Part shown: piece after piece, positions 11,653 to 50,216 of the stretch
Layout of the letters: each line of letters begins with the position of its first letter
Numbering within the stretch: position 1 is the stretch's first letter
Assembly: GCF_030052815.1 (NCBI RefSeq)
Contig: NC_079502.1
Location: 35,332,050-35,396,049 of the forward strand
DNA length: 64,000 nt
From: Hevea brasiliensis
Taxonomy: Eukaryota; Streptophyta; Magnoliopsida; Malpighiales; Euphorbiaceae
Direction: 5' to 3'
Notes under the pieces: model-generated
Database searches by the model: none
What the model was told of the DNA's origin: nothing
Seen by the model: the letters and a program-made list of their open reading frames with translations, nothing else
Position numbers and translations under genes: made by a program

Positions 11653-11731
11653 GTAAATTTTGAAACTCATTGAGTAATTGTAAACAATAATTGAACTGAT
11701 AATGATAATAATAACCAAATATATGTGATAG
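11653..11731 (+). other. Apparent 79-nt intron in element A integrase
   Basis: It begins GTAAAT after codon CAG and ends TGATAG before GTC, is A/T-rich and carries stops. Removing it joins IIQ to VLEDMLRS in frame. B has a 75-nt counterpart at exactly the same codon boundary, and F has the exact intronless junction (49538/49539). This is inferred from comparison; no RNA data. Confidence 0.8.
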
Positions 11732-12306
11732 GTCCTCGAGGATATGCTGAGAAGTTGTGTTATTGAGTTTGAGGGAAGTTGGGACAGATACCTTAAACTG
11801 GCAGAATTTGCATATAATAATAGCTATCAAGCTAGCATACAAATGGCACCCTATGAAGCACTGTATGGGAGAAAATGCAGAACACCTGTATGTTGGACTG
11901 CATTGGGTGAAGATAAGCTAGTGGGGCAAGATCTGATAAAACAGACAGAGGAAAAGGTGAAATTGATAAAGGCCAATATGAAAGTTGCCTCAGACCGACA
12001 TAAATCTTATGCTGACTTGAAAAGAAAGGACATTAAATATGAAGTTGGCGAGAAAGTATTTCTCAAAGTATCACCGTGGAAGAAAGTGTTGAGATTCGGG
12101 AAAAAGGGAAAATTAAGCCCTAGGTTCATTGGCCCATATGAAGTGATAGAACGTGTGGGACCAATAGCCTACAGATTAGCCTTACCACCTGGGCTGGACA
12201 AGATACATAATGTGTTCCATGTCTCGATGCTCAGAAGATACAGATCAGATCCTTCACATGTCATCTCAGCAGAAGAAATTGTGGTACAACCTAACCTGAC
12301 ATATGA
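11732..12306 (+). pseudogene. Element A integrase, exon 2 (C-terminal part before B insertion)
   Basis: It continues the integrase core end and GPY/F module: YNNSYQASI, APYEALYGRKCRTP, then KVFLKVSPWKKVLRFGKKGKLSPRFIGPYEV and the conserved KIHNVFHVSMLRRY. It is open from 11732 up to the insertion of B after ACATATGA; the last five bases are the TATGA duplication. The reading frame resumes on the far side of B at 23425. Confidence 0.9.
12302..12306. other. Target-site duplication of B (TATGA)
   Basis: TATGA is repeated at 23420-23424 after B's right end. Removing B and one copy restores the element A reading frame across the site. Confidence 0.94.
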
Positions 12307-13955
12307 TGTGACACCCCTTACCCGACTACAGTGTAGCCGAGCAAGTTATGCCACTCAGTGTGCCGGAGCACTCTATTTTATCTTAATTCATTTTTATTGT
12401 AGTTTTGAATATAACTTGTGAAATATAATATATTTAAGCCGTTTATCGAAATTATTATTTATTTGAGGTTCCGAAAATTTTAAAAGAAAATCCGGCGGAG
12501 TACCGGCTAAAAATGGAGAAAATAGTTCTTCGGAACCTGTGAAAAACACTTCCAATATTCACATTCAATCATTTCCAAACTCCAATATCAAAATCTCATC
12601 AATATTTCTCAATAATTTGTCAATTTCAGGTCTCAACAACCTTTTCATTTCTCAAAACATCCCTTTCTCAGGGTTCTCATATATAAACAACCATTAAATA
12701 CTCAAATTAATACCATACATGACCATAAATCTTTATTATTTACATGAACCTCAAAATACATTACATAAATCCCAAATACATATGAGAAATTAAAAAGTTA
12801 ATTACAAAATGACAAAATGACATCTAGTGTCCTACCAATGCACTGCAGGTGACGAGGTGACACGGACACTGAGCAGAACTGCCAGATGGACTCACCCAGT
12901 CTGTGGTCTACTGGGCTCGCGATCGGGATCTCCAGTACCTACGCGTGGCAAAAGCAACGCGCTAAGCAATAATGCTTAGTGGTGCAATAATATAATAAAA
13001 GAAAATAGCAAGAAAATAAATGTGTATAGAATGTGTATGCTTTCTTTGTTTGGTATTGATATATTCATTGTTTCATTTACATTGTTCACTTTTATTCATT
13101 TGGTTGCCCTAAGTAACCTACACTAGATGACTGGACTGGATAACGGGTAAACTGGCACTGGGTACCTAGTACCTCGGGCCGTCACACCATCGGTCACATA
13201 CGTATCTCCCGGTGTGCAACAGAACAGCTAACAAGCTGTAAATAATATTCGGGACAAGGCCAAGTCTCAATACAAAGTCAGAATGGCTAAAAGCCATGAA
13301 ATCACAGAATGGCATTTTTGCCATGTGCAGTACTGCTAACTGAACCCTATTGGCATGCCAAACTATCCAAACCAATCTTGTTAGGTATACTAGGGCATTT
13401 GAAACTCTTAAATTTGTCAATTTGTGAATTTCAATTTTTTTGGTGTTACTATTCATCATGGGTCAACAAAAATGTTGACTTTTAGAATAAAAATGTGTAC
13501 ATCAACTTTGGCACTCCCAACATACCACATTTGGTGTTTAAAACTTGTTGGCATTAAGTGTTTTTGCCATTCCAAAGTGTAACTCAACACAAACAGAGTT
13601 TTAAATTTTGGTGAGTCAACTTCACTGTTCCATTGAACACTGTTACTGTTGGAATTTGAGGAAATGTAAAACATGAAAGTTGTTCCTTATTTTGTCTAGT
13701 TGAATTTCCTTTTTTGAATCACTCCATTTGGAGTTTTTTAGCTCCAGATATGGCTCAAAAACCCAAGCTGTCCGGATATGCATTCTGCAGAAATTTACCA
13801 TATCTACAGTGCATGAACAGTAACTTGAGTCACTTGGTTGAATGGGTTCTGGCCATAATTTGGGGTAGGTTCCTTCATTAAAGTTGTTTGTCTATGTCTT
13901 AACTTGTTGCTGTAAACCTTTTAGGCCAATTGACCAAATCTACAGTGAGTTATGG

Positions 13956-13982
13956 CCAAATGAACAGTTACTGTTCATTTGG
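13956..13982. other. 27-nt perfect palindrome in B LTR
   Basis: Arms CCAAATGAACAGT and ACTGTTCATTTGG pair perfectly around a single T. The identical palindrome is at 21939-21965 in the other B LTR; D has a partly decayed version around 34522-34548. Confidence 0.9.
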
Positions 13983-14102
13983 AAAATTCTGTAGAATTCA
14001 GTGCAGGGCATCCGGATTGTGGCTGAGTTTTGACCCTTTTGCTTTGGTCTTTTGGGCATGGTTTCTTCAGCAAAAATGTGCCATTATAAGCCTAGTTTCA
14101 TA

Positions 14103-48400: not shown

Positions 48401-48766
48401 TTTCTTTATACTAATTCATAATTTTTTTTTTTATATTTCTTATATCAATTACATTTCAATAAACCTTTAATTATGTCCCAAAATTTAATTTCGAGGGTTC
48501 CCCACAGTCCTTGGGTCGGCAATTGCCTTCGCAGTAACTTCCCGGTGCGGTCACCCATCGCTACGGTGCCAGCTCATTTAACCTAGTTTTATTTTCTCTC
48601 TTTTATTTTTCTTTAATTTTTCTTGTATTTTCTTTTTATTTATTTCATCATTATATGCCTGTTTACTATCACTGAAATGTAGTTCCAAACATCTTAACTT
48701 GTCCAGACAGACATTAGGTCACCGGAGCAGCAGAATGTACGGACTACGTACAGTGAGGATGTTACA
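45481..48766 (-). repeat. Element F 3' LTR (3286 bp)
   Basis: Plus-strand ends TGTAACACCACTC and GAGGATGTTACA. In minus sense a GTAAGT donor starts at 47887 and an AATAG acceptor ends at 45721. Double stem-loop at 46080-46128. Two module copies at about 46940 and 47173, 232 nt apart. Confidence 0.9.
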
Positions 48767-48780
48767 ACTCTTCCCCGCTA
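48767..48780 (-). other. Polypurine tract of F
   Basis: TAGCGGGGAAGAGT in minus sense, next to the 3' LTR. The neighbouring hairpin is decayed (AAATTTCATTG...). Confidence 0.82.
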
Positions 48781-48790
48781 AATAAAAATT

Positions 48791-50216
48791 TCATTGTCGA
48801 AATTTACCTGGTGTGAAGAGCTGAGGGAACTGTTGCCTCATTGTCTCCTCGCTTTCCCATGTTGCCTCTTCCGTGTTGTGGTGCCTCCATAGGATTTTCA
48901 CTAGTGGAATTGTCTTGTTTCTGAGCTCTTTTGCCTCTCGTGCCAAGATTTTAATCGGTTCTTTTTCATACATCAGGCCAGGTTGTACAACAATTTCTTC
49001 TGCTAAGATGACATGTGAAGGATCTGATATGTATCTTCTGAGCATCGAGACATGGAACACATTGTGAATCTTGTCCAGCTCAGGTGGTAAGGCTAGTCTG
49101 TAGGCTACTGGTCCCACACATTCAATAACTTCATATGAGCCAATGAACCTAGTGCTTAATTTTCCCTTTTCCCGAATCTCAACACTTTCTTCCACGGTGA
49201 TACTTTGAGAAATACCTTCTTGCTAACTTCATACTCAATGTCCTTTCTTTTTAAGTCAGCGTAAGAATTTTGTCGGTCCGAGGCAACTTTCAAATTGGCC
49301 TTTATCAGTTTCACCTTTTCCTCTGTCTGTTTTACCAGGTCTGGTCCCACTAGCTTATCTGTACCCAATCAATCCAACATACAGGTGTTCTATATTTTCT
49401 CCCATACAGTGCTTCATGGGGTGCCATTTGTATGCTAGTTTGATAGTTATTATTGTATGCAAATTCTGCCAGTGAAAGGTATCTATCCCAGCTTCTCTCA
49501 AATTCAATAACACAACTCCTCAACATATCCTCGGGGACCTGGATTATACTTTTTGACTGTCCATCCGTCTGAGGATGAAAAGCCATACTAAAATGGAGTT
49601 GTGTGCCCAAGGATTCTTGTAGTTTTCTCCAAAATCTAGATGTAAACCTCGGGTCTCTATCAGATATAATGGAAAGCAGAATTCCATGTAGTCTAAATAT
49701 CTCACTAATGTACAACTATGCTAGCTTTTCCGGTGAGTAGTCAATTCTGACTGGCAGAAAATGTGTTGATTTGGTCAACTTATACACAATCACCCATACT
49801 GCATCAAGCTTCTTCTGAGTGAGAGGTAGACCACTGATAAAGTCCATAGTGACTCGGTCCCATTTCGATTCAGGTATGTTTATAGGCTGTAACAAACTTG
49901 ATGGAACTTGATGTTCTGCTTTGACTTGCTGACATGTTAAGCATCTAGTTACATAGTCAGCTATGTCCTTCTTCATATCCGGCCACCAGTATCGAAGTTT
50001 CAGGTCATGGTACATTTTTGTGTTTCCTGGGTACATAGCATATACACTGTTATGTGCTTCTCTCATAATACTGGTTTTTAACTCTTTATCCTCTAGTACA
50101 AACACTCTACCTTTATAGTACAGGCACCCATTTTCTTTCACTTCATATTCAGCTTCCTTTCCCTCAGTCATTTTACCCATAACAGCCTTCAATTTCTCAT
50201 TTGTCTTCTGCTCATC
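48791..50216 (-). pseudogene. Element F integrase with chromodomain, intronless
   Basis: Minus strand: zinc domain (AHNSVYAMYPG...CLTCQQVK), core TMDFISGLP, SDRDPRF, then DGQSKSIIQ, where the catalytic Glu is Lys, so the enzyme would be dead. At 49538/49539 CAG is followed directly by GTC, with no intron. The C-terminal part follows (FIGSYEVIECVGP, HNVFHVSMLRRY) and a chromodomain (KELRNKTIPLVKILWR, EATWESEETMRQQFP). Lesions: stops near 50218 and 49717, single-base deletions near 49365 and 49190. Confidence 0.9.

Follow-up and report, generated by a model that had tools for sequence, protein, structure and literature searches.

A putative spliceosomal intron in the integrase of an abundant chromodomain Ty3/gypsy family of Hevea brasiliensis, and its exact absence from hundreds of copies

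The elements at the locus

A stretch of 64,000 nucleotides of the Hevea brasiliensis genome (contig NC_079502.1; here called the window) contains three related long terminal repeat (LTR) retrotransposons, designated A, B and F, which were compared at one position of the integrase gene. A and B carry a short insert with GT and AG ends at this position, and F is joined exactly at the same place. The insert behaves as a spliceosomal intron of the U2 type in the integrase of a large chromodomain Ty3/gypsy family. It is a polymorphism of the whole family, with roughly 90% of the copies bearing it and 10% lacking it, and not a matter of two elements and one. The features at the site are as follows.

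11017..11652, plus strand: A integrase upstream of the putative intron, with the H2C2 zinc finger and most of the rve core; open, 212 codons
11653..11731, plus strand: putative intron of A, 79 nt, GT...AG, phase 0; 21.5% G+C against about 39% in the exon flanks
11732..12306, plus strand: A integrase downstream of the putative intron, with the core end and the SH3-like domain; open
15490..16224, minus strand: B integrase downstream of the putative intron, with the SH3-like domain and the chromodomain; one internal stop codon
16225..16299, minus strand: putative intron of B, 75 nt, GT...AG, phase 0, with an in-frame TGA at codon 4
16300..17325, minus strand: B RNase H and integrase upstream of the putative intron; open
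48800..49538, minus strand: part of the F integrase behind the junction, with frameshifts and stop codons
49538..49539, minus strand: exact intronless junction in F
49539..50174, minus strand: part of the F integrase ahead of the junction, with one stop codon

The integrase of A is interrupted by the nested element B, so that its downstream frame was read for 191 codons, as far as the insertion of B; A continues after 23424. When pieces of B were read with Pfam, the domains followed in the order Retrotrans_gag, RVP_2, RVT_1, RT_RNaseH, Integrase_H2C2, rve and SH3_Tf2-1, and then the chromodomain. This is the order of gag, protease, reverse transcriptase, RNase H and integrase of a Ty3/gypsy chromovirus. 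The rve match lies under its curated cut-off, and Chromo, at the C terminus of the integrase, reaches 27.5 bits against a cut-off of 25.1. Tekay/Del is a candidate clade name for the family, in line with the census of Hevea elements (PMC7353026).

With a slash at the exon boundary, the junctions read ...AATCCAG/GTAAAT...GTGATAG/GTCCTC... in A (plus strand), ...AATCCAG/GTAAAC...CTTGTCAG/GTCCTT... in B (minus strand) and, without an insert, ...AATCCAG/GTCCCC... in F (minus strand). Re-reading thus bore out the original prediction in the coordinates of both inserts, in their common phase-0 boundary CAG/GTC and in the exact F junction at 49538/49539. In all three elements the site lies between codons, four codons past the catalytic Glu of the integrase. 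In an alignment, its counterpart in the integrase of prototype foamy virus (PFV) is the Glu of this same motif, which we take to be the third catalytic acid.

The inserts of A and B are identical at 58 of 74 aligned positions, and the alignment score of their interiors exceeds those of all 5,000 shuffles. In the flanking exons, 22 of 68 and 26 of 63 fourfold sites differ between the two elements. A recent transfer of the intron between the A and B families was considered and found unsupported, as the fourfold sites beside the intron differ at 3 of 7 and 2 of 5 positions (small numbers) and there is no local dip. The ends of the insert repeat AGGT in A and CAGGT in B, and such AGGT end repeats are compatible with a proto-splice site and with a target duplication at gain alike. 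A diverged relative (L085, near 2720 on the plus strand; 83.5% identical to B upstream) carries an insert of 77 nt at this site, its donor reading CAT/GTAAAC, and may represent a third, further lineage or an old copy.

Properties of the insert

The reading frame runs into a stop within every one of the 69 inserts that were read (68 in the tree described below and one diverged copy): 62 have it at codon 4, five at codon 7 and two at codon 1. Of these inserts, 30 came from a pattern search in which GTAA and AG were required. Between A and B, the ratio of nonsynonymous to synonymous substitution rates (dN/dS) is 0.095 upstream of the insert (212 codons) and 0.051 downstream of it (190 codons; bootstrap 0.023-0.091), the latter a sign of strong purifying selection. 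That both lineages show selection at the protein level behind an insert with stops suggests that the insert was removed from the message.

The inserts also have the GT...AG ends, the A+T-rich composition (77%, against 53% in the flanks) and the branch-point-like word of a U2-type intron. A TRAY word is found 15-50 nt before the 3' end in 69/69 inserts (shuffles: mean 51, maximum 59). Among the 39 copies from outside the window that most resemble B in exon 1, GT is present at its expected position in 33 and AG in 35 of the 36 insert-bearing copies. A Hevea gene model, P0253, was considered as a possible spliced model. The genomic copy that it matches best, at 98% and contiguously over residues 1-193, is an intron-minus one, and the model is thus no evidence of splicing.

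Copies with and without the insert in the genome

The 1.88-Gb assembly that holds the window was searched with words flanking the site. The pattern TAATCCAG-GTAA-(55 to 85 nt)-AG-GTCCTYGAGGATATG yielded 5,327 intron-plus copies and the joined words TAATCCAG-GTCCTYGAGGATATG yielded 591 intron-minus copies; the reversed-pattern control gave 0 hits for each. Inserts of any end type between the flank words number 5,709, of which the 5,327 retain GT and AG. When 30 copies of either class were read as loci, 60/60 belonged to the A/B family. Removal that is exact and keeps the reading frame, as expected for a U2-type intron, is thus seen in the 591 joined copies, 30 of them read as loci, and relatives as well as Ty3 are contiguous at the site.

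A search by exon 1 alone, in which the 39 copies most similar to B were the best of 6,636 candidates, gave 36 intron-plus copies, three exactly joined copies and no partial one. Only a single copy in the genome has an insert shortened to 1-30 nt between the flank words, a count that covers this size class and copies whose flank words are intact. In this copy (G000:C8:18841384-18841413), 7 nt (GTGATAG) are left between intact flank words. Exact absence at this rate, 591 against one shortened insert, points to spliced RNA that was copied back into DNA.

The A-type ending GTCCTC occurs in 141/591 intron-minus copies. Among the pattern-drawn copies of C1 (L029-L058 and L079-L108), 11/30 intron-minus and 3/30 intron-plus copies are of A-type, and A-type elements may lose the intron more often.

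The ends of three intron-minus copies were inspected. In L077 both LTR starts are present, with the target duplication AGTTG on either side; L019 is flanked by AGCAG and AGGAG, and in L020 another insertion disrupts the 3' LTR end. The LTR starts of the three differ by a Kimura two-parameter (K2P) distance of 0.012 to 0.021, and the intron-minus copies are real insertions. The short insertion that interrupts the 3' LTR end of L020 (locus L114) contains tRNA-like words and is possibly a short interspersed nuclear element.

Distribution of the two states on trees

A tree was built, with the insert columns excluded, from 101 copies: the 39 found by exon 1, 30 intron-plus and 29 intron-minus copies drawn by pattern, and the three window copies. 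Its proportions (68 plus, 33 minus) carry no meaning because of this mixed sampling. L085 was excluded from it for its short downstream part, and L001-L008, L078 and L094 as duplicates of other rows. The tree requires 16 changes of state, at least 8 of which are forced by well-supported (starred) branches, whereas shuffled labels require 28 on average and 0/500 shuffles as few as 16. With the long-branched copy L037 dropped, trees of 100 copies required 20 changes (8 forced) for exon 1 alone and 19 changes (13 forced) for exon 2 alone, and a tree of the 58 pattern-drawn copies (29 plus, 29 minus) required 13 changes (6 forced). The bootstrap had not settled in the 101-copy, exon-1 and exon-2 trees. 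The comparison of genomic copies at the site and the tree of both states, which had been proposed as a check on the original prediction, thus gave a range of 13-20 changes, 6-13 of them forced. As many gains of a similar insert at one site are unlikely, most of these changes must be losses or transfers by template switching.

In the set of 58 copies the nearest neighbour has the same state in 34 cases and the other state in 24, and end branches are shorter in intron-minus than in intron-plus copies (median 0.031 vs 0.040, P = 0.009). In 30/33 intron-minus copies (10/12 of A-type, 20/21 of B-type), the bases that lie up to 10 nt to the left and right of the junction match the copy's own type.

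Element F is about 90% identical to A in its internal region and falls into one group with the A-type copies at a support of 100/100, and so belongs to the family of A, as had been claimed. Its proposed status as an erased copy is upheld in part. For intronless copies as a class, a spliced RNA that was reverse transcribed is the best explanation, but F groups with the intron-minus copy L108 (98/70) inside the A-type group, so that its erased state may be shared or inherited.

The site in relatives and other families

In the Gag-Pol protein of Ty3 (7q5b) the site is contiguous: the upstream reading of B reaches as far as residue 1276, and residue 6 of the downstream reading of A aligns with residue 1282. 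Homologous proteins were taken as the best 120 of about 8,000 candidates per search, and among the matches listed 123/240 and 88/100 were contiguous at the site by motif count. The rest of the 240 comprise two that end like B read into its intron, 15 that end within six residues past the Ser-Glu-Arg motif and 100 unclassified proteins; the remaining 12/100 include contiguous variants and truncated or rearranged models. The two that resemble B read into its intron (P0001 and P0002) end in ...VIQVNN and may be Hevea proteins as well. Another protein, P0048, is 98% identical to Hevea copies of a related chromodomain family that is abundant in the genome. This family is contiguous at the site in 115/115 scored copies, out of 92,450 candidates and with a scoring that favours contiguous matches. 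Because the site is contiguous in Ty3, in the homologues and in this related Hevea family, the intron looks like a gain in one lineage. Among viral contigs and prokaryote genome contigs there was no confirmed relative at the sensitivity used.

Among the best-listed matches, 13 homologous plant integrase open reading frames (ORFs) end directly before the Gln at the site, and others before nearby Gln codons. They were rejected as introns, since ORFs also end before other Gln codons of this stretch; read from the ORF translations, these ends would fit a decay of the Gln codon CAG to TAG. A tomato protein that departs just past this Gln (P0254) was likewise discarded as a rearranged model.

LTRs and nesting of the window elements

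The LTRs of the three elements and the adjoining target-site duplications (TSDs) are placed as follows.

5194..7712, plus strand: 5' LTR of A, shorter than its 3' LTR; TSD TAAAG at 5189-5193
23624..26984, plus strand: 3' LTR of A; TSD TAAAG at 26985-26989
12307..15451, minus strand: 3' LTR of B; TSD TATGA at 12302-12306
20295..23419, minus strand: 5' LTR of B; TSD TATGA at 23420-23424
45481..48766, minus strand: 3' LTR of F

A and B thus have the LTRs and the 5-bp target duplications expected of a chromovirus, and the claim that both elements document reverse transcription of unspliced RNA holds on this ground. The LTRs of B have diverged by a K2P distance of 0.021. Two parts of the A LTRs gave values of 0.028 and 0.042, and F would have 0.070, provided that the LTR piece at 56980-60065 belongs to it. 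About 3.4 kb (window 53600-57000) separate the internal start of F from this piece upstream of it. The gap contains a repeat of about 260 nt (55115-55570) and is probably a nested insertion.

Proposed mechanism and alternatives

By far the most probable explanation, in our view, is an intron in the integrase gene whose removal would yield the integrase mRNA, with the unspliced RNA as the usual template of reverse transcription and an occasional spliced template giving rise to an intronless copy. The transcript would have two fates. After splicing, it would serve as the mRNA of a full-length integrase with its chromodomain. Left unspliced, it would encode a Pol protein ending four to ten residues past the catalytic Glu and would be the RNA that is usually packaged, so that about 90% of the copies inherit the intron; now and then a spliced RNA would be packaged and leave an exactly intronless copy. 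What the sequences offer for this scheme is a shared insert with splice signals, selection behind its stops, exact absence from hundreds of copies, and intron-plus copies that were themselves retrotransposed. An intron is erased when spliced RNA is reverse transcribed; the survival of this one within pol, in more than 5,000 copies, suggests that the template mostly escapes splicing. Given the truncated Pol encoded by the unspliced form, an intron-plus RNA would rely on integrase from another spliced or intronless RNA molecule.

Several observations weigh against this explanation. The +5 base of the donor is A, and GT or AG has been lost in 382/5,709 inserts between intact flank words, as may happen in old copies. 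In terms of identity (0.785; 300 shuffles: mean 0.626, maximum 0.789), the A and B inserts resemble each other less strikingly than in terms of alignment score. Many intronless copies have long open frames, yet the intron-minus class stays at about 10%. The two states are clustered on the trees, where 0 or 1 of 500 shuffles needs so few changes, so that many intron-minus copies share events, and part of the alternation could be explained by template switching between intron-plus and intron-minus RNAs. Finally, splicing itself is inferred from DNA.

The strongest rival, improbable as we consider it, is that the intron-minus state had few origins and reached other lineages when plus and minus RNAs were packaged together and the template was switched between them, instead of arising in many independent rounds of splicing and reverse transcription. 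Retrotransposons do switch templates, the alternation on the trees alone cannot tell the two explanations apart, the state is clustered, and the 34/58 copies with a nearest neighbour of their own state are in line with it. However, the own-type bases on both sides of the junction in 30/33 intron-minus copies mean that tracts exchanged between types would have to be tiny, and the trees of exon 1 and exon 2 alone require similar numbers of changes (20 and 19). Even then at least one splicing event, and probably one per type, would be required.

A much weaker case can be made for the proposal, part of the original prediction, that the intron serves to produce two integrase isoforms, one free of the chromodomain, translated from the unspliced transcript, and a complete one, translated after splicing. 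Two RNA forms do follow from the anatomy, given the early in-frame stop in every insert read. But to speak of an integrase without chromodomain puts it too mildly, as the stops at codon 1, 4 or 7 leave a short form with only 0-6 residues beyond the boundary, which is missing the SH3-like domain and the terminal part of the catalytic core as well. The residues added differ between A and B, and the unspliced product is unlikely to be an active integrase.

Two further readings we regard as barely tenable. If the insert were a plain insertion that is never spliced, A and B would merely be broken copies, which agrees with the stops in 69/69 inserts and with a case for splicing that comes from DNA, but not with a dN/dS of 0.05 in the downstream exon between two insert-bearing lineages, nor with more than 5,000 copies and a ratio of 591 exact absences to one shortened insert. 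If the intron-minus copies were deletions at the DNA level, for which the AGGT repeats at the insert ends could serve as guides between short repeats, the same ratio (counted for inserts of 1-30 nt between intact flank words) and the lack of any partial insert among the 39 copies found by exon 1 alone speak against it.

Why the intron has been kept is a more tentative matter. It is possible, albeit doubtful, that it is retained for the benefit of the element, shielding its transcripts from RNA silencing, with integrase made only from the spliced pool and unspliced RNA kept as the template. Such a shield is attractive because in Arabidopsis silencing affects transgenes less readily when they contain introns that are spliced (PMC12259633, on Christie et al. 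2011).

Relation to known systems

The excerpts of a 2025 review describe introns as generally absent from plant LTR elements and name Ogre and EVADE as the exceptions (PMC12786077). Those of a plant survey mention the Ogre intron alone (PMC6317226), and a paper on BARE lists BARE1, Bagy2, Ogre and CRR (PMC3735527). In sunflower, expressed elements have several spliced isoforms, which encode truncated GAG or RT-RH (PMC7730604). A Medicago family, Mtr70, is described as having "an intron in the POL" and was assigned to Ogre (PMC2533021). Ogre, however, is a non-chromovirus lineage whose intron lies between ORFs and measures 274 bp on average, whereas the intron of the Hevea family has 75-79 nt (window copies), lies inside the integrase of a chromodomain element, and has exact genomic absences that were counted.

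For BARE1 of barley (Ty1/copia), translation and replication were proposed to draw on distinct RNA pools (PMC3735527), and part of the transcripts of EVADE in Arabidopsis is spliced (PMC12786077). The Hevea family would be alike in having only part of its transcripts spliced. In BARE1 and EVADE, splicing leads to a Gag-only RNA and destroys the reading of pol; in the Hevea family it would restore this reading. Artificial intron-marked Ty and ONSEN reporters use the loss of an intron in new copies as a sign of passage via spliced RNA (PMC12786077), whereas the Hevea family has a natural marker, is abundant and has mostly retained its intron.

In domain order and chromodomain the Hevea family is like the plant chromodomain Ty3/gypsy elements, Del/Tekay and relatives. 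Del/Tekay accounts for 76.1% of the reverse transcriptase domains counted in Hevea, in a census whose excerpts name no element intron, neither for Del/Tekay nor for its relatives (PMC7353026), and relatives are contiguous at the site. No report of an integrase intron was found in the titles and excerpts of the open-licence literature searched. We rate as new the intron in the integrase of a chromodomain element and the countable natural record of its loss, and as known the existence of intron-bearing plant LTR retrotransposons.

The way in which a single transcript is used for translation as well as for reverse transcription is described as a major question in the BARE paper (PMC3735527). The family carries a natural intron tag with which the RNA form that was copied can be read from DNA, with counts of intron-plus and intron-minus copies by age and lineage, and from RNA through junction reads. 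If the intron is indeed kept for these benefits, the family would replicate through a division of labour among RNA molecules, recorded copy by copy in the genome, and intronless escapees would stay a minority through readier silencing. The Hevea family would also be a natural test of introns protecting transcripts from silencing (PMC12259633).

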